DNA of 64,000 nt from Crocinitomicaceae bacterium. Lineage in GTDB: Bacteria; Bacteroidota; Bacteroidia; Flavobacteriales_D; Crocinitomicaceae. The position numbers were made by a program, and so were the translations under genes. Within the stretch, counting starts at the first letter, position 1, and each line of letters begins with the position of its first letter. Positions 460 to 60,942 of this stretch are shown here, piece by piece. The stretch is from NCBI GenBank assembly GCA_029249445.1, contig JAQWHI010000013.1:1-64000 (forward strand), in the 5' to 3' direction. Below the pieces are notes generated by a model. That model was given only the letters and a program-made list of their open reading frames with translations, was not told where the DNA came from and ran no database searches.

Positions 460-1863
460 CTATATGTGCAGTGCTCTATCCTCTGTCGCAGCCAGTGCTG
501 CTTCCTTCACACCTTCCGAATACGTTGGGTGTGGGTGACAAATACGTGCAATGTCTTCCGCAGATGCGCGGTACTCCATAGCAACAACGGCTTCCATAAT
601 TAAGTCTGCTGCACGTGGTGCAATCATATGTACACCCAGCAACTCATCAGTTACTGAATCAGCGATAACTTTTATTGTTCCAAGGATGTCCATACTCGCG
701 CGAGCCCGACCCAACGCTTTAATTGGAAATTGTCCAATTTTTATTTCTTTTCCTGCTGCTTTTAATTCTTCTTCTGTTTTTCCAACAGAGGCAACCTCTG
801 GCCACGTATATACCACACCCGGGATTAGGTTGTAATCGATATGTGGTTTTTGTCCTGCGATTTGTTCAGCTACAAAAACGCCTTCTTCTTCAGCTTTGTG
901 CGCCAGCATTGCTCCGCGCACTACATCGCCGATTGCATAGATGTTTGGTGTATTTGTTTGGAGGTTCTGATTTACCTCAATTTGGCCTCGCTCATTAGTC
1001 TTTATTCCCGCATTCTCAAGTTCCAAACCAGCGGTAAACGGCTTTCTCCCGACCGCTACAAGACAATAGTCTGCTTCAAGCACAACTTCCTCATCTTTTT
1101 TATTTAATGCAGTTAGTTTTACTCCTTTCCCTGTGTTGGTTACGCTTTGAACTTTGTGTTGTAAGTGGAACTTAAATCCTTCTTTCTTTAAGACTTTTGC
1201 GAGCTCTTTTGACATTGTTCCATCCATTGTTGGGACAATCCTATTGGCAAACTCAACGACCTCAACTTTGGTTCCTAAACGACCAAATACAGATCCAAGC
1301 TCCAAACCGATTACACCACCGCCAATAACAAGTAGCTTTTTGGGGATTTCCCTCATGTTCAACGCTTCTGTTGAGGTAATTATTCTCTTTTTGTCAGGCT
1401 CCATGCCTGGGAAGAAGTTCGGCTTTGAACCGGTAGCAATAATTACATTTTTCGTTGAGATCGTGGTTTCACTTTTATCTTCAGCAACTACTTTTATGGT
1501 GTTCTTATCAACGAAAGAGCCCAGTCCGTGGTGGACATCGATATCGTTTTTATCCATTAAGAATTTCACTCCAGCACAAGTTTGTGATACTACATCATTT
1601 TTGCGTTTCACCATCTGTTCAATGTTTGCCTTTACTCCTGTTACATCAATTCCGTGTTGATCGAAATTGTGGGTTGCATTGTGAAAGTGCTCAGATGAGT
1701 CCAGAAGTGCTTTTGATGGAATGCATCCAACGTTCAAACATGTTCCTCCAAGTGTATTGTATTTTTCAATTAAGGCAGTTTTCATTCCTAATTGTGCGCA
1801 ACGAATTGCTGCAACATAGCCTCCGGGACCAGAACCAATGATTGTGATGTCGTACGTACTCAT
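460..1863 (-). CDS. lpdA: Dihydrolipoyl dehydrogenase
   Basis: E3 flavoenzyme of the pyruvate and 2-oxoglutarate dehydrogenase complexes and the glycine cleavage system; it reoxidises dihydrolipoamide with NAD+. At 467 residues it has the usual length. Visible are the FAD-binding GSGPGG at residues 10-15, the redox-active disulfide GGTCLNVGC (Cys42, Cys47), the NAD-binding GGGVIGLELG near residue 180, the second FAD motif NIYAIGDV, and the C-terminal active-site HPHPTYSE. It appears to be monocistronic, with the M43 protease gene upstream separated by a terminator. Lipoyl synthase, which makes the cofactor of its substrate proteins, lies 5 kb away on the same strand. Confidence 0.97.
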   Translation of the reverse strand: MSTYDITIIGSGPGGYVAAIRCAQLGMKTALIEKYNTLGGTCLNVGCIPSKALLDSSEHFHNATHNFDQHGIDVTGVKANIEQMVKRKNDVVSQTCAGVKFLMDKNDIDVHHGLGSFVDKNTIKVVAEDKSETTISTKNVIIATGSKPNFFPGMEPDKKRIITSTEALNMREIPKKLLVIGGGVIGLELGSVFGRLGTKVEVVEFANRIVPTMDGTMSKELAKVLKKEGFKFHLQHKVQSVTNTGKGVKLTALNKKDEEVVLEADYCLVAVGRKPFTAGLELENAGIKTNERGQIEVNQNLQTNTPNIYAIGDVVRGAMLAHKAEEEGVFVAEQIAGQKPHIDYNLIPGVVYTWPEVASVGKTEEELKAAGKEIKIGQFPIKALGRARASMDILGTIKVIADSVTDELLGVHMIAPRAADLIMEAVVAMEYRASAEDIARICHPHPTYSEGVKEAALAATEDRALHI

Positions 1864-1925
1864 GTTTTATTTTGTCTTTGGTACAAATGTATTATTTCTT
1901 GGCTTTTAAATAGCGATAAATAGCA

Positions 1926-1955
1926 CAAAAAAAGAGGCTGTCATTGACAACCTCT
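1926..1955 (-). terminator. Terminator of the first M43 protease gene
   Basis: Read on the minus strand, AGAGGTTGTC-AAT-GACAGCCTCT (one mismatch) is followed by seven T residues. It begins about 25 nt after the protease stop codon and separates this gene from lpdA. Confidence 0.75.
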
Positions 1956-1979
1956 CTCGAATGTTTCGAACCTTCTATC

Positions 1980-4187
1980 TTACATTACAACAACTTTCTG
2001 TGTTGTACTGTGATCTCCAGATTTTACTTCCAAGAAGTAGCAACCTGCAGATAGATTTGCTGTATTATCTAATGCTTTTGAAACTGTTGTATTCGTTGTT
2101 TCAATCAATTCTTGAGCAACTACTTTTCCTTGAGTGTCTCTCAAGATGAAATGTGTTGGTTCGTTTTGTGCCGTATAGTTCACATTGATTGCTTCTCCGT
2201 TTGTTGGGTTCGGGAACACAACAAGATTGAGGTCAATAATTGCTTGATCTGCTACACCCAAGATACCTGATACGATAATGTCATCGATATAGAGGTTACT
2301 CGACAAGTCAGAGGCAGTAAATTCAAATTTAATTCGCGTCAAACGATCTTGCGCAGTTGGCGAATAGGAAAATGATGCTTCTCTCCACATTGTATTTGTT
2401 GTTGGAGCAAAGTCCGCGTTACTAGCGTATCCTGCCGTTACTAGACTTTCACCTGTAATGGTACTTGACGCATTGAATCCTTCGACAGAAACCACTTTTG
2501 GTGTCCAAGATTCACCACAATTTCTTGAGGTATAAACTCTTAGTTTTTCGGTGATATCAGCCGTTACCGTTGCATTTGTTGCATATGCGAACTTGAATGT
2601 AACTGTAATTGCCGCAGTATTTCTTAAGTCGATTGATGGCATGATCAAGTTATCAATACTTCCGCCCAATCTGAAGTTGTAGAACCAATCTTCCGTGAAG
2701 TTGTCCGCATTCGAGATGTCTTTATAGGTATTTAACTTGAATGCTTTCGATCCGTTGTATCCATATCCATTTACAACGCTAAATTTTCCATGGTTGTCTT
2801 CTGGATTTTCTACGACGAAAAACCCTGTTCCGTTCCCCCATGTATTGACTGTTTCCATGTTGAATGTCGTTGGACCAACATTTTCTGGCCAATCTGGCGA
2901 AACATAAATGTAATTCACTTCATCTCTTGTGTCAGACCCAGCAGCGTTGGTAACAGTCAATTTAACACGTTTCCAACCTGGAGTATCCCATGTAACATTT
3001 GGATTTGAGGATGTTGAAGTTGCTGGTGTTCCTCCTTCAAATTCCCAGGCTCTTGATTCGATAACTGCATTCCAAGAAGCGTCTTTGAAAGAGACAGGAG
3101 AGCCTGTACAAACCGTTCTGTCCGGAGAATTAAAATCTGCAACCGGTGAACACAACGGAACAGTCAATGCGGTTTGTGGCATTGTTGCATTCATTACGCC
3201 AGTTTCCATCAGTGTGGTGTCTTGCCATAGAATATTTCGTTGCCCACTAATTCCTTCGAGTGTATTGTGTGTGAGTGCTTTTTGATCTTCAGTAAACATG
3301 GCGGCGCAACTTGAATAGTCCATCCAGTTTTGGACATTTGCCAATGTATCCAATCCAACCAAGCTTGTGTCACAGGTAGCTAAACCCAAGTTACAAACTG
3401 AGAAAGAACCTTGAGTTGGGGGTGTATCGACAATACCGTCATCTCCACACTCTCCTGCGGCTCCTGCAACGCTCACTCCACTGAATGGGTGTGCAAGTCC
3501 AAAATAATGGCCCGCCTCGTGGGTAAGTGTTTCTGTATTCACTGTTGTGTAATCTCTCAAAACGATTCCATCTGTCCAGAATCCAGACCCATCTGTTCCA
3601 CCCGGGAATGTCGCATATCCGAGAAGTGTTCCTTGCGTTGGACCTCCAGAATTTGGCTCGTTTACTACCCAAATATTCAAATAGTGCGAGCGGTCCCATT
3701 GGTTGATTTTTGAAACGGTCTCACCGATATATGTTTCGTGTGTTTGAATGTGTTCAATTCCGTTTGTACAGTTTCCAAATGGATCAATGGCAGCCAATCG
3801 AAATTCAATTTCCATATCAGCGACAATAGAATCAAACATTGGTATGATGTTCGAAAGCCCTGCGTTTGATGCGCTATAATCTTCGTTCAACTCTTCCATC
3901 AAGCTATAAATTGTTGCATCTGAAATATTTTCAGATCCATACATGTGAAGAATATGGAATACTACAGGAACGATATATTTGGTTGCTTTTTTCGCTTCTG
4001 CCTCAGCGACAGTTGCTATTGGACCCGTATGTATAGTTTGATTTTGCTCATATTCCGCTTTCAATTGAGGGAATTTTGTGTGCAATGCTTTCAAAGCTTC
4101 TTCTGTTCCACAAGGAATTTCTTGCTGCGAAATTCCGCTGAAGGCAAGAATGGAGAATGTTAATAGAGAGAATATTGTTCTTTTCAT
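1980..4187 (-). CDS. M43-family zinc metalloprotease, T9SS-secreted (copy 1)
   Basis: A 735-residue secreted protease of the pappalysin-like (M43) metzincins. Order of parts: signal peptide (MKRTIFSLLTFSILAFSGIS), short propeptide, catalytic domain with the zinc site HEAGHYFGLAH and a downstream Met-turn-like NWMDYSSC, a PKD domain (about residues 350-435, EFEGGTPAT and WDTPGWKRVKLTV), a jelly-roll-like region ending in YIDDIIV, and a T9SS sorting domain beginning near VVFPNPTNGEAINVN. It is probably exported to the cell surface or medium and degrades proteins; the substrate is unknown. It has the same architecture and long identical blocks as the neighbour at 4416-6644, so the pair is a tandem duplication. 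A terminator lies between the two, so each is probably transcribed separately. Confidence 0.92.
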   Translation of the reverse strand: MKRTIFSLLTFSILAFSGISQQEIPCGTEEALKALHTKFPQLKAEYEQNQTIHTGPIATVAEAEAKKATKYIVPVVFHILHMYGSENISDATIYSLMEELNEDYSASNAGLSNIIPMFDSIVADMEIEFRLAAIDPFGNCTNGIEHIQTHETYIGETVSKINQWDRSHYLNIWVVNEPNSGGPTQGTLLGYATFPGGTDGSGFWTDGIVLRDYTTVNTETLTHEAGHYFGLAHPFSGVSVAGAAGECGDDGIVDTPPTQGSFSVCNLGLATCDTSLVGLDTLANVQNWMDYSSCAAMFTEDQKALTHNTLEGISGQRNILWQDTTLMETGVMNATMPQTALTVPLCSPVADFNSPDRTVCTGSPVSFKDASWNAVIESRAWEFEGGTPATSTSSNPNVTWDTPGWKRVKLTVTNAAGSDTRDEVNYIYVSPDWPENVGPTTFNMETVNTWGNGTGFFVVENPEDNHGKFSVVNGYGYNGSKAFKLNTYKDISNADNFTEDWFYNFRLGGSIDNLIMPSIDLRNTAAITVTFKFAYATNATVTADITEKLRVYTSRNCGESWTPKVVSVEGFNASSTITGESLVTAGYASNADFAPTTNTMWREASFSYSPTAQDRLTRIKFEFTASDLSSNLYIDDIIVSGILGVADQAIIDLNLVVFPNPTNGEAINVNYTAQNEPTHFILRDTQGKVVAQELIETTNTTVSKALDNTANLSAGCYFLEVKSGDHSTTQKVVVM

Positions 4188-57187: not shown

Positions 57188-58201
57188 TTATGAATTCTCT
57201 TCGAGGTATCTATCTATGATTCTTGGTAGTGGGTAGTCTTGGATATTTTCTCTATTTATTTTTATCCATTTCTTATTTATTTCTTTCGGGAAACCTTCAA
57301 TATGGTGAAATATAGCATGTATTGTCTGGTGACTCAATTTATGAATGACTTCTTTTGATTCCGTCGTTTGATTCTGCCAAATGAATTGTTCTTTCTCTGA
57401 ATCGTTTGTTTCAGTTTCAATAAGTGGAAATTGATACATATTTTGCCAGATACCAGATGTAGTTCTTTTTTCGATGAAGGTGTAATTGTCTTCATTGTAG
57501 AGTAGGAAATGGAAGAAGCGATCGGTTACTTTTGTCTTTTTCGACTTGATTGGCCGAATGTTAATCGTATTATTTTCAAGTGCGAGACAATGATCGGCGA
57601 CTGGGCATTCCAAGCAGATTGGCTGCTTTGGACGGCAAATAAGCGATCCAATTTCCATCATGGCTTGATTGTGTGTAGAGGGATTAGATTCAGAGATCAG
57701 TTCATCTGCTATTTCCTGAAATTCTTTTTGACCAAGTGCTGTATCTATTGGAGTCCTTATATCAAAAAGTCTACTCAGGAATCGATATACATTTCCATCA
57801 ACGACTGCCTTTCTCTCATTGAAAGCAAAAGAACTAATTGCAGATGCAGTGTAAGTTCCGACACCCTTCAGTTTAATAATTTCATCGAAGGATGAAGGAA
57901 AGTTGCCGCTTAGCTCATCACGGACGTATTTTGCTGAAGAATGAAGGTTTCGAGCTCTGCTGTAATAACCTAATCCTTGCCAGTCGTTGAGTATTTGCTC
58001 TTCATCTGCATTGGCTAAGTCATTAATCGTTGGGTAGTTTTTGATGAATTTCAGATAATATTTGGTTCCTTGCTCAATGCGAGTTTGTTGCAAAATGATT
58101 TCTGAGAGCCAGATAAAGTAAGGATTTTTCGTTTCTCTCCAGGGCAAATTTCTTGCGTTTTGTTCGTACCAATGTGCGATTCGAAGATAAAAATTGGTCA
58201 T
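57188..58201 (-). CDS. mutY: Adenine DNA glycosylase
   Basis: Removes adenine opposite 8-oxoguanine. The 337-residue enzyme has SEIILQQTRIEQGTKYY (catalytic Glu within the LQQT block), the helix-hairpin-helix LKGVGTYTASAISSFAF, a catalytic aspartate in VVDGNVYRFLSRLF, and a 4Fe-4S loop C-x6-C-x2-C-x5-C (CRPKQPICLECPVADHC). The C-terminal NUDIX-like domain that recognises 8-oxoG follows (FHFLLYNEDNYTFIEKR). It heads the mutY-ssb-gldE-gldD-folK operon and diverges from the HU gene. Confidence 0.96.
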   Translation of the reverse strand: MTNFYLRIAHWYEQNARNLPWRETKNPYFIWLSEIILQQTRIEQGTKYYLKFIKNYPTINDLANADEEQILNDWQGLGYYSRARNLHSSAKYVRDELSGNFPSSFDEIIKLKGVGTYTASAISSFAFNERKAVVDGNVYRFLSRLFDIRTPIDTALGQKEFQEIADELISESNPSTHNQAMMEIGSLICRPKQPICLECPVADHCLALENNTINIRPIKSKKTKVTDRFFHFLLYNEDNYTFIEKRTTSGIWQNMYQFPLIETETNDSEKEQFIWQNQTTESKEVIHKLSHQTIHAIFHHIEGFPKEINKKWIKINRENIQDYPLPRIIDRYLEENS

Positions 58202-58260
58202 TTGAAAAAAAAAACAAAAAAATTAAGGCGTAAAAATAAGTAATAAATGAAAGAGAACTT

Positions 58261-58268
58261 TATTTTTG
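58261..58268 (+). promoter_or_regulatory. Predicted -7 box for the HU gene
   Basis: TATTTTTG, followed by GCGCC, lies 39 nt before the HU ATG at 58308. Confidence 0.5.
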
Positions 58269-58307
58269 CGCCAAAACTAGAATTAATCACCGAAAAATCA
58301 AATAGAT

Positions 58308-58598
58308 ATGACAAAAGCCGATATCGTGGCAGGGATCGCTGAAGAGACAGGATTAGAAAGAGTAGAAGCGTTAAGAGCTGTAGAAGCGTTTATGAATTCT
58401 GTAAAGTCTTCGTTAGCAAATGGACAAAATGTTTACTTAAGAGGCTTTGGAAGCTTCGTTGTTAAAGAAAGAGCAGAAAAAACAGGAAGAAATATTTCAA
58501 AAAACACTGCTATAATCATACCGGCTCACAACATTCCGTCCTTCAAACCAGCGAAGACATTTGTTGAGGATGTGAAGTCTAATGTCAAGGTGAAATAG
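58308..58598 (+). CDS. HU/IHF-family DNA-binding protein
   Basis: A 96-residue histone-like protein: TKADIVAGIAEETGLERVEALRAVEAFMNS forms the dimerisation helices, NVYLRGFGSFVVKERAEKTGRNIS the beta-arm base, and the arm tip reads with Ile-Pro-Ala (IIPAHNIPSFKPAKTF), the proline that intercalates DNA. It is one of several HU paralogues usual in Bacteroidota. It diverges from mutY and precedes the 30-codon gene and rng, an order I recall as common in the group. Confidence 0.95.
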   Translation: MTKADIVAGIAEETGLERVEALRAVEAFMNSVKSSLANGQNVYLRGFGSFVVKERAEKTGRNISKNTAIIIPAHNIPSFKPAKTFVEDVKSNVKVK

Positions 58599-58640
58599 TA
58601 AGGAACTGACTATTGGGTTTAATAATCCAATTGATTTTAC

Positions 58641-58648
58641 TATTTTTG
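58641..58648 (+). promoter_or_regulatory. Predicted -7 box for the 30-codon basic gene
   Basis: TATTTTTG followed by GCGC lies 83 nt before the ATG at 58732, in the gap after the HU gene. The same TATTTTTGCGC string occurs in front of the HU gene. It gives the small gene its own transcription start. Confidence 0.55.
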
Positions 58649-58650
58649 CG

Positions 58651-58687
58651 CTCTGGGGTGAGTGATTGGAATCCCTCCCACCCTGAG
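58651..58687 (+). promoter_or_regulatory. Possible leader hairpin before the 30-codon gene
   Basis: CTCTGGGGTG at 58651-58660 can pair with CACCCTGAG at 58679-58687 (one mismatch and one bulge), placing a GC-rich stem at the very 5' end of the predicted mRNA. No known riboswitch or ribosomal-protein leader fold is recognised. Confidence 0.35.
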
Positions 58688-58731
58688 AAATAAAGATTAG
58701 AAAAGAAGTTTAACAAGTAATATAAAGTATT

Positions 58732-58824
58732 ATGCCAAGTGGTAAAAAAAGAAAAAGACACAAGATGTCAACGCACAAGCGTAAAAAAAGACTTAGAAAA
58801 AATCGTCACAAGAAGAAAAAATAA
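58732..58824 (+). CDS. 30-residue mS38/bS22-like (AURKAIP1/COX24-type) ribosomal protein
   Basis: An extremely basic peptide of 30 codons: it starts MPSGKKRKRHKMSTHKRKKR and the last ten residues are LRKNRHKKKK, so about two thirds are Lys, Arg or His. The core KRKRHKM-x4-RKKRLRKNR matches the C-terminal COX24/AURKAIP1 motif shared by mitochondrial mS38 and mycobacterial bS22, which bind the small ribosomal subunit near helix 44. It has a predicted promoter, a leader hairpin and a perfect terminator of its own, lying between the HU gene and rng. It is too short for most gene finders. Identity rests on motif likeness. Confidence 0.8.
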   Translation: MPSGKKRKRHKMSTHKRKKRLRKNRHKKKK

Positions 58825-58847
58825 TTTTCTCTTGAACCTTTTTAAAG

Positions 58848-58877
58848 CTTAGTAGGTAAGGTACCTACTAAGTTTTT
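58848..58877 (+). terminator. Terminator of the 30-codon gene
   Basis: Perfect 11-bp hairpin CTTAGTAGGTA-AGG-TACCTACTAAG followed by TTTTTC, 23 nt after the small gene and 26 nt before the rng start codon. Confidence 0.92.
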
Positions 58878-58903
58878 CTATTTATTAACATAATAAGGCT
58901 TTC

Positions 58904-60454
58904 GTGAGTTTAGAATTAATAGTCGATTCCCGAAAAGAAGGAATCAGTATTGCCTTACTCAATGACGGAAAGCTTATAGAGCTGCATAAAGAACAAGATG
59001 GAATTAACGAATTTGCTGTTGGAGATATATACCTCGGTAAAGTAAGAAAAGTTGTTCCAAGTCTTAATGCATCTTTTGTGGATGTAGGGTATGAAAAAGA
59101 TGCCTTTTTGCATTATCTGGATTTAGGTCCTCAATTCAATTCACTCAATAAGTTTTCACGAAATACATTGCGTGGCAAGCAAAACGTAGCCGATCTTCTG
59201 TACTTCAAAGGCGAGAAGGATATTCCAAAAGATGGAAAGATTAAGGACGTCGTTTCATCATCCGCTCCAATTTTAGTACAGGTAGCCAAAGAACCAATTT
59301 CGTCCAAAGGACCGAGATTGTGTGCTGAGATTACATTAGCTGGGCGGTACCTTGTTTTAGTGCCTTTTTCCAACAAAGTTTCGATCTCTCAAAAGATCAA
59401 AAATAACGAGGAAAGAAGTAGATTAAAAGAGGTAATGAATAGTATTAAACCAAAAAACTTTGGTGTTATTATTCGAACCGTAGCCGAAGGAAAGAAGATC
59501 GAACTGCTGGATCAAGATTTGAAGAATCTGGTCGGTAAGTGGAAAAAAATGCATGAGAATCTCAAGGGTGCGAAACCACCTTTTCGAGTACTTGGAGAGA
59601 TTGATAAAACATCCTCAATCTTAAGAGATTTGTTAAACGCTGAGTTCACTAATATTCATGTGAACGATGCAGAACTAGCTGAGAATCTCAAGGAATATGT
59701 TTCCGGCATAGCGCCGGGTAGAGAGAAGATTGTTCGTCAGTACGACGGCAAGTTGGAAGTCTTTGAGAAGTTCGGAGTGAACAAACAAATTAAGTCGCTG
59801 TTTGGTAAAAAGGTCCCACTACCAAGTGGAGGCTATTTGATTATCGAACACACTGAAGCTATGCACGTCGTTGATGTGAATAGCGGCAATCGTAAAGGCG
59901 CTGATGGACAGGAGAGTAACGCGTTGGCCACGAATATTGAGGCTGCTGAAGAAATCGCGCGCGTGCTCCAGCTTCGCGACATGGGAGGAATTGTTTGTAT
60001 TGACTTCATCGATATGCATGATAGAGCAAACAATAAAGCTTTACATGATGTCCTCAAAAAAGCAATGTCCAATGATCGTGCGAAGCACAACATCTTGCCT
60101 CCTTCAAAATTTGGAGTTGTTGAAATTACCCGACAACGTGTTCGGCCTGAAACAGATATTAATACATCTGAGAAATGCCCAACTTGTAATGGGACCGGAG
60201 AGGTTCAAGCGTCGATTCTTTTTGCAGAAGAGATCATGAACAATTTGGAGTATTTGGTGACTCAAAGAAACGAAAAAGACATTTCACTTTTGGTACACCC
60301 ATACTTGGAGTCTTTCTTCAAAAAGGGATTGTTCTCACATCAAATGAAATGGTTCTTTAAATACAAAAAATGGATATCTGTTCGAGGAAACTCGGCAAAT
60401 CATTTGTTGCAATATTCATTTGTCAATAAAAACAAAGAGGAAATTACGCTCTGA
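58904..60454 (+). CDS. rng: Ribonuclease E/G
   Basis: Endoribonuclease of the RNase E/G family, 516 residues, processing rRNA and mRNA. The start is GTG at 58904 (first residues MSLELIVDSRKEGISIALL). An S1 domain follows (VGDIYLGKVRKVVPSLNASFVDVGYEKDAFLHY), then the catalytic domain with the metal site MHVVDVNSGNRKG and IDFIDMHDRANNK, the zinc-link CPTCNGTG (two cysteines), and a small C-terminal domain. There is no long scaffold tail, so it is of RNase G length. recX overlaps by 1 nt. Confidence 0.96.
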   Translation: MSLELIVDSRKEGISIALLNDGKLIELHKEQDGINEFAVGDIYLGKVRKVVPSLNASFVDVGYEKDAFLHYLDLGPQFNSLNKFSRNTLRGKQNVADLLYFKGEKDIPKDGKIKDVVSSSAPILVQVAKEPISSKGPRLCAEITLAGRYLVLVPFSNKVSISQKIKNNEERSRLKEVMNSIKPKNFGVIIRTVAEGKKIELLDQDLKNLVGKWKKMHENLKGAKPPFRVLGEIDKTSSILRDLLNAEFTNIHVNDAELAENLKEYVSGIAPGREKIVRQYDGKLEVFEKFGVNKQIKSLFGKKVPLPSGGYLIIEHTEAMHVVDVNSGNRKGADGQESNALATNIEAAEEIARVLQLRDMGGIVCIDFIDMHDRANNKALHDVLKKAMSNDRAKHNILPPSKFGVVEITRQRVRPETDINTSEKCPTCNGTGEVQASILFAEEIMNNLEYLVTQRNEKDISLLVHPYLESFFKKGLFSHQMKWFFKYKKWISVRGNSANHLLQYSFVNKNKEEITL

Positions 60455-60942
60455 TGTCTTTAGGGCGTAAATACTCATTCTTAGAAGCAAAAACGAAGCT
60501 TGAGGCTCTTTGCGCTTATCAGGAGCGTTGTTCTTCAGAGTTGCAAAAAAAACTTGTCCAGTGGCGGTTCAATCAAGAAGATATGGACCGTCTTTTGGCA
60601 CATCTGATTTCGGATGACTTTCTGAACGAGGAACGGTTTGCTCTGGCTTTCGTTTCGGGTAAAGTGAATATTAAAAAGTGGGGTAGAATTAAAATCCGTC
60701 AACAACTCAAGTTAAAGCATATTTCGAAATATTCAATCGAAAAAGGCATTGCATCTATTGACGAGGCTACCTACATGAATCACCTCTTGAGTCTTGCTCT
60801 TCGTAAATTTGAGCAGTTACGTCAAGACGAAAATTCTTATGAAAAGAAGGTTAAGATTTATCGGTTTTTAAGTTCAAAGGGATATGAAATTGAGCTTATT
60901 CGTTCTGCCGTTGATGAAATTTTTGAAAAGGATTCAAAATAA
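60454..60942 (+). CDS. recX: RecX family regulatory protein
   Basis: A 162-residue helical protein of the RecX type, which modulates RecA filaments. Three helical repeats are visible: FLEAKTKLEALCAYQERCSS with LQKKLVQWRFNQEDMDRLLAHLISDDFLNEERFALAF, then KWGRIKIRQQLKLKHISKYSIEKGI, and KKVKIYRFLSSKGYEIELIRSAVDEIF. The ATG shares its A with the rng stop codon (TGATG-type junction), so it is translationally coupled to RNase G rather than to recA. Confidence 0.88.
   Translation: MSLGRKYSFLEAKTKLEALCAYQERCSSELQKKLVQWRFNQEDMDRLLAHLISDDFLNEERFALAFVSGKVNIKKWGRIKIRQQLKLKHISKYSIEKGIASIDEATYMNHLLSLALRKFEQLRQDENSYEKKVKIYRFLSSKGYEIELIRSAVDEIFEKDSK

Follow-up and report, generated by a model that had tools for sequence, protein, structure and literature searches.

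The closest described counterparts of the gene considered here are the ribosomal proteins called bS22, a name that can mislead, since Escherichia coli Sra, formerly S22 (rpsV), shares the old name only and is not known to be the same protein. In Borrelia burgdorferi, where bS22 had been missing from the annotation, passages of PMC10618245 place the protein in a small-subunit pocket formed by 16S rRNA helices h2, h27, h44 and h45, with a contact to 23S rRNA helix H68, and treat the Flavobacterium johnsoniae protein as a closer relative of Borrelia bS22 and mS38 and eL41 as analogues. For C. acnes, passages of PMC10085706 describe bS22 in the same pocket, give its contact with H67 as an extra subunit bridge, and report that the free peptide inhibits the growth of E. 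coli and staphylococci as well as cell-free translation.

In the window, by which we mean the whole 64,000-nucleotide stretch that was analyzed, a frame of 30 codons had been predicted between the genes for HU and rng, with about two thirds of its residues Lys, Arg or His. The frame, its coordinates and its 30-residue translation, MPSGKKRKRHKMSTHKRKKRLRKNRHKKKK, are all borne out (Table 1), as are the two neighbors, which were identified by domain scans; a RecX gene follows next after rng. The peptide contains 12 K, 6 R and 3 H (21/30 residues, 70% basic), in keeping with the size and composition of bS22-type proteins (approximately 30 residues, roughly 60–70% basic).

Table 1. Positions of the features at the bS22 locus in the window
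Feature	Position	Strand	Basis
HU-family DNA-binding protein, upstream neighbor	58308..58598	+	PF00216, 2e-28; conserved neighbor
TAnnTTTG (−7) box TATTTTTG, presumed bS22 promoter	58641..58648	+	83 nt between box and ATG
Hairpin at presumed bS22 transcript start (CTC.GGGGTG / CACCC.GAG), without T-tract	58651..58687	+	folds; relatives
bS22 gene, 30 codons and TAA	58732..58824	+	ORF, translation, PDB matches, conservation, pN/pS
Intrinsic-terminator-like site, bS22/rng interval	58848..58877	+	11-bp perfect stem, 3-nt loop, T5; also in consensus scan
rng, ribonuclease E/G family	58904..60454	+	PF10150, 1e-96; starts 26 nt past T5 tract

When MPSGKKRKRHKMSTHKRKKRLRKNRHKKKK was searched against all PDB chains, three sequences were matched: 9I5V chain 10, named 'AURKAIP1/COX24 domain-containing protein' (E 3.8e-10), 7JIL chain 5, with the listed names 30S ribosomal protein S22 and 50S ribosomal protein L38 (E 1e-9), and 8FMW chain V, 30S ribosomal protein bS22 (E 4.8e-6, residues 1–28 of 28). 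We take 7JIL chain 5 to be the F. johnsoniae protein, which fits the published papers; the F. johnsoniae bS22 in PDB 7JIL is reportedly that of Jha et al. in 2021. The peptide is of low complexity, with a HMMER bias correction of 16.5 bits beside a score of 40.9 in the PDB search. A profile built from eight bS22 sequences returned E values of 8.2e-16 (9I5V), 8e-16 (7JIL) and 3.4e-9 (8FMW), only the last of which is independent because two of the eight sequences are the 9I5V and 7JIL chains themselves, and it found nothing beyond those three chains up to E 10. The peptide is thus similar over its full length to a chain modeled as bS22 in a solved ribosome. The COX24_C profile (PF08213), whose motif the peptide had been said to resemble, scored 12.3 bits (E 0.16) on MPSGKKRKRHKMSTHKRKKRLRKNRHKKKK, under the gathering cut-off of 23, and a search for the PF08213 family retrieved it in none of six genomes; an NCBIfam scan of the peptide likewise returned no family. 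The mS38/bS22-like identity of the original prediction therefore stands as bS22, through the full-length matches to solved chains, and falls short of the COX24_C profile, so that the tie to mS38 and mycobacterial bS22 is one of published structures and not of the MPSGKKRKRHKMSTHKRKKRLRKNRHKKKK sequence. Because those full-length matches are to ribosomal chains, the gene encodes an already known ribosomal protein and is not new. The remark that genes this short are usually missed holds only in part, as the 9I5V chain carries an annotation-style name.

A frame of 30 codons is by itself at chance level, as 65 ORFs of at least 25 amino acids overlap the surrounding 6 kb; it is conservation that lifts the bS22 frame above chance. 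With the window's own genome counted each time, the frame was found in 58 of 60 genomes among relatives, in 117 of 120 family genomes and in 290 of 296 sampled phylum genomes that had passed a completeness filter of 95%. The two misses among relatives are G003 (79% complete, 800 contigs) and G025 (93% complete, 570 contigs), and a second match occurred in three genomes of the phylum set and one of the family set. The protein is conserved, at about one copy per genome, and under purifying selection. By both protein and profile search, six of the 296 near-complete phylum genomes have no recognizable bS22 (G204, G252 and G256, of one genus; G284, G331 and G340, part of another), one of them giving a chance-level match only (E 1.28). 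It follows that bS22 is not indispensable across the whole phylum, and these few genomes are useful for asking what it does.

A first set of 30 loci showed no nonsynonymous differences at all, a biased result, as the best protein matches had come first, which is superseded by the following count. Loci from named genomes were fetched with rng rather than the bS22 peptide as the query, and the best 80 of 584 were taken; the frame is present in 71 of the 76 of these with at least 400 nt upstream of rng (the five lacking it are L225, L229, L230, L231 and L232), lying 45–170 nt before rng in 68 of the 71. Across these 71 loci, again from the best 80 of 584, mean pS was 0.77 and mean pN 0.036 (pN/pS 0.047), while the other two forward frames contain stops in 45/71 and 71/71. 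Two of the checks proposed with the original prediction, conservation of the frame in other Bacteroidota and changes biased to synonymous sites, came out in its favor. The same counts bear on whether the ORF is spurious and lies within an RNA of the HU–rng interval that is conserved yet untranslated, its similarity being an effect of composition. ORFs of such length are indeed frequent, and A-rich sequence favors Lys codons, yet differences fall at synonymous sites (pS 0.77 versus pN 0.036), the non-basic residues P2, G4, T14 and N24 are invariant in an alignment of eight bS22 sequences, and matching chains exist in solved ribosomes. We consider a spurious ORF barely conceivable, and the pN/pS values together with the matches to solved ribosomal chains refute it: the bS22 ORF is a real gene.

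A different role for a genuine peptide, as a short basic antimicrobial or nucleic-acid-coating peptide acting mainly outside the ribosome, is suggested by its 70% basic composition and by the inhibitory effects ascribed to free C. acnes bS22 in passages of PMC10085706 (on E. coli, staphylococci and cell-free translation). Set against this, no hydrophobic stretch fit for an export signal is visible on inspection of MPSGKKRKRHKMSTHKRKKRLRKNRHKKKK, the peptide is nearly invariant across the whole phylum, its orthologues are chains of solved ribosomes, and its gene neighbors encode HU and an RNase of the E/G family; we regard such a role as highly improbable. We hold it nearly certain, as judged from sequence comparison, that the ORF encodes the Bacteroidota small-subunit protein bS22, which is probably transcribed as a unit of its own. 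By analogy with the Borrelia structure, as PMC10618245 describes it, a helical, 70% basic bS22 would be built into the 30S subunit in the 16S rRNA pocket of h2, h27, h44 and h45; extending the analogy to the extracts of PMC10085706, it may reach 23S rRNA (H67/H68) at the subunit interface and so strengthen the inter-subunit joint. We infer that bS22 is present in the ribosome of the source organism.

The gene order around bS22 was compared at loci of the genus, the order and the wider phylum. At the 31 genus loci (from 34 genomes) the HU match ends 125–176 nt before bS22, and rng, found in 30 of them, starts 160–191 nt after the bS22 start. The order's other families contributed 19 loci: HU is 487–605 nt upstream in 12 of them, at most 126 nt upstream in six, and was not found in one. 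Six loci without a close HU gene, drawn from the family, the order and the wider phylum, were read, and in each an ORF ends 2–37 nt before bS22; the two of these ORFs that were scanned encode TPR proteins. Of 28 loci of the wider phylum, 27 have an HU-family match no more than 1.5 kb upstream and nine have rng downstream. The ancestral order was likely HU-TPR-bS22-rng; most of the family would have lost the TPR gene, bS22 then being provided with its own promoter. The conserved HU-(TPR)-bS22-rng order ties bS22 to an RNase of the E/G family. Two further observations were made at these loci. The TGA stop of rng shares one base with the ATG start of recX (window 60452–60456), which suggests translational coupling of the two genes. 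At the end of contig L002 the last bS22 codons seem to have given way to a sequencing-adapter-like stretch, presumably of Nextera type, an assembly artefact.

Turning to transcription, the box TATTTTTG lies where the original prediction had placed it, and a TAnnTTTG box is present no more than 130 nt upstream of bS22 in all 31 genus loci read (one of these requires accepting TTCG in place of TTTG); a promoter box of its own also precedes bS22 in most of the Crocinitomicaceae-like family. The same promoter core, TATTTTTGCGC, precedes both HU (58261–58271) and bS22 (58641–58651). According to start-site mapping in flavobacteria, the box occupies −12 to −5 (extracts of PMC9723704), and by that rule transcription of bS22 would start near 58653. 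The perfect 11-bp terminator also proved as described, with arms CTTAGTAGGTA and TACCTACTAAG at 58848–58858 and 58862–58872, TTTTT behind them and a distance of 23 nt from the stop codon, and terminator-like repeats were seen by eye downstream of bS22 in most genus loci. The claim of an own promoter and terminator is therefore supported, in terms of sequence, by the box at 31/31 loci and by the repeats at most of them. No TAnnTTTG box occurs in the window from the bS22 stop to the rng start, so rng may depend on read-through. Probably, then, bS22 is a separate one-gene unit with a sigma-A type promoter of its own in the HU–rng interval and an intrinsic terminator at its end, an arrangement that would keep an abundant ribosomal mRNA apart from the downstream RNase gene. 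Use of the promoter, the strength of the terminator and rng expression through read-through are predicted features of this unit.

The leader between box and start codon is the only part of the locus that may be new, and it is partly represented in the window. Folded alone, the window leader is no better than its shuffles (z −0.59, not significant by itself), its hairpin lacks the U-tract, and the covariance model R1, built from leaders of relatives as detailed below, finds nothing in the genome that the window comes from; the leader claim consequently rests on relatives. Rfam returned nothing in the bS22 leader in window 58200–59000 (E up to 1) and nothing at the gathering cut-off in the bS22 loci of six relatives. 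No paper on a bS22 leader, attenuation or terminator appeared among the titles listed by a search of open literature, which does not show that none exists.

At 22 of the 31 genus loci the leader matches a common model, namely TAnnTTTG, then CACTC or a near form, a variable stem-loop, GRGTG or a near form, and a T-tract. An initial alignment of 26 leaders had too many gaps to be usable, and the statistics were drawn from the 22 leaders with a T-tract (20 from the genus, and L033 and L068 from other genera of the family; 21 distinct). In this set 95.5% of cells pair, compared with 39–59% in slid controls; 28 cells are changed on both sides against a shuffled mean of 9.7, and the covariation score is 0.41 against 0.22, with none of 500 shuffles as high for either measure. 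Two of the five measures were not outstanding, these being the number of pairs changed on both sides (175/500 shuffles as high) and of further pair types (61/500). The kinship of the rows stays in the shuffled controls and is not removed from these values. In L018 (1645–1685, minus strand) and 21 further leaders, the promoter box runs into a covarying hairpin and T-tract before bS22.

Model R1 was built from the 22 T-tract leaders, leaving out those without a T-tract, and in 34 genus genomes it found 22 sites at E < 1e-4, all 22 directly before bS22, from 150 scored candidates out of approximately 1300–3500 first-look candidates per genome. As the matches at bS22 arise partly by construction, the sole informative part of this result is that no strong sites appeared elsewhere. 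At nine bS22 leaders of the 31 readable genus loci, the window's among them, R1 has no match. A strict pattern gave one match each in 8/34 genomes, all at bS22, and none in the reversed control. Twelve weaker R1 matches were also read. Four have an exact TAnnTTTG box: L118 at tRNA-tuf, L121 and L122 at rpsA, and L120 at an M24 peptidase ORF, with a poor hairpin. The other eight are terminator-like by eye and lie near or behind other genes, with a near-miss box in L115 and L119. Among the twelve, those that combine the exact box with CACTC stand before rpsA in G021 (S1 domains by scan) and G023 (by similarity), and before a tRNA cluster in G012, where an S30AE-family gene lies upstream and an EF-Tu gene follows. 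Of 30 rpsA loci fetched, 12 were read (in the other 18 the start was not recognized), and ten of these leaders begin with a hairpin, usually without a T-tract: three of the ten loci with box and start-site stem have a run of at least four T in the next ten bases. Several rpsA leaders share a further stretch, GTCGC...GCGAC. At the three rpsA loci scanned with Rfam there was no leader match, only tRNAs, in L118.

In the prevailing genus type, the CACTC just past the TAnnTTTG box would also serve as the outer 5′ arm of the covarying hairpin with its U-tract. If the box lies at −12 to −5, as in the extracts of PMC9723704, transcription of bS22 should begin past CACT and leave out the outer arm, which suggests a promoter-nested terminator acting on HU transcripts: a polymerase arriving from HU would make the whole hairpin and stop, and one starting at the bS22 promoter, without the outer arm, would escape. 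We put forward tentatively, as a rather unlikely reading, that in the Crocinitomicaceae-like family the bS22 promoter and an intrinsic terminator are nested in this manner and insulate bS22 from HU, with related hairpins before rpsA and tRNA-tuf in some genomes. The start-site hairpin of the relatives has about an even chance of being instead an ordinary attenuator in bS22 mRNA or a protective 5′ stem-loop, against which stands the position of CACT before the expected start in the prevailing type, as full terminator formation would then be beyond the bS22 mRNA. Across the rest of the family, where 17 of 19 fetched loci were read (L096 and L104 were left out), 11 have the box-CACTC form and six a terminator-like hairpin of another kind, with arms identical or close to AAACTTCCTG/CAGGAAGTTTTT; it lies 26–28 nt behind the box, where a transcript from the bS22 promoter would contain all of it, as expected of an attenuator or stem-loop. 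This second hairpin type stands between HU and bS22 in L091, L095, L098, L106, L108 and L109 (CAGGGAG in L108). An attenuator or stem-loop is further favored by the missing T-tract of the window hairpin, by the T runs at three of ten rpsA start-site stems, and by start-site preference: B. thetaiotaomicron starts are mostly purines (A 45%, G 41%; extracts of PMC7366714) and the rule applied here gives C, which means that transcription may really begin at another point within the arm or ahead of it. A nested terminator, if true, would shield a ribosomal-protein gene from its neighbor, and the start-site hairpin of close relatives poses a testable question, namely how insulation or attenuation acts on the transcription of a single ribosomal-protein gene in this phylum.

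Overall, nearly every sampled Bacteroidota genome carries this ribosomal protein gene of 30 codons, which automatic annotation can easily lose, and it can be set beside its described counterparts. Actinobacterial bS22 (M. smegmatis, C. acnes), mS38/AURKAIP1/COX24 and eL41 are reported in the same small-subunit pocket (passages of PMC10085706 and PMC10618245), but differ in that the window peptide has no PDB sequence match to them at E up to 10. Borrelia burgdorferi bS22 (8FMW; PMC10618245) is highly basic and aligns over residues 1–28, whereas it comes from another phylum, carries more substitutions and has a GUG start. The AURKAIP1/COX24 domain-containing protein of 9I5V/9I5X also has 30 residues, of which 27/30 are identical, the differences lying at N3, A13 and K22. 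The bS22 of F. johnsoniae (7JIL), from the same phylum, aligns over its full length of 30 residues with 26/30 identical, and differs from the window protein by substitutions at positions 12, 13, 21 and 23 only.
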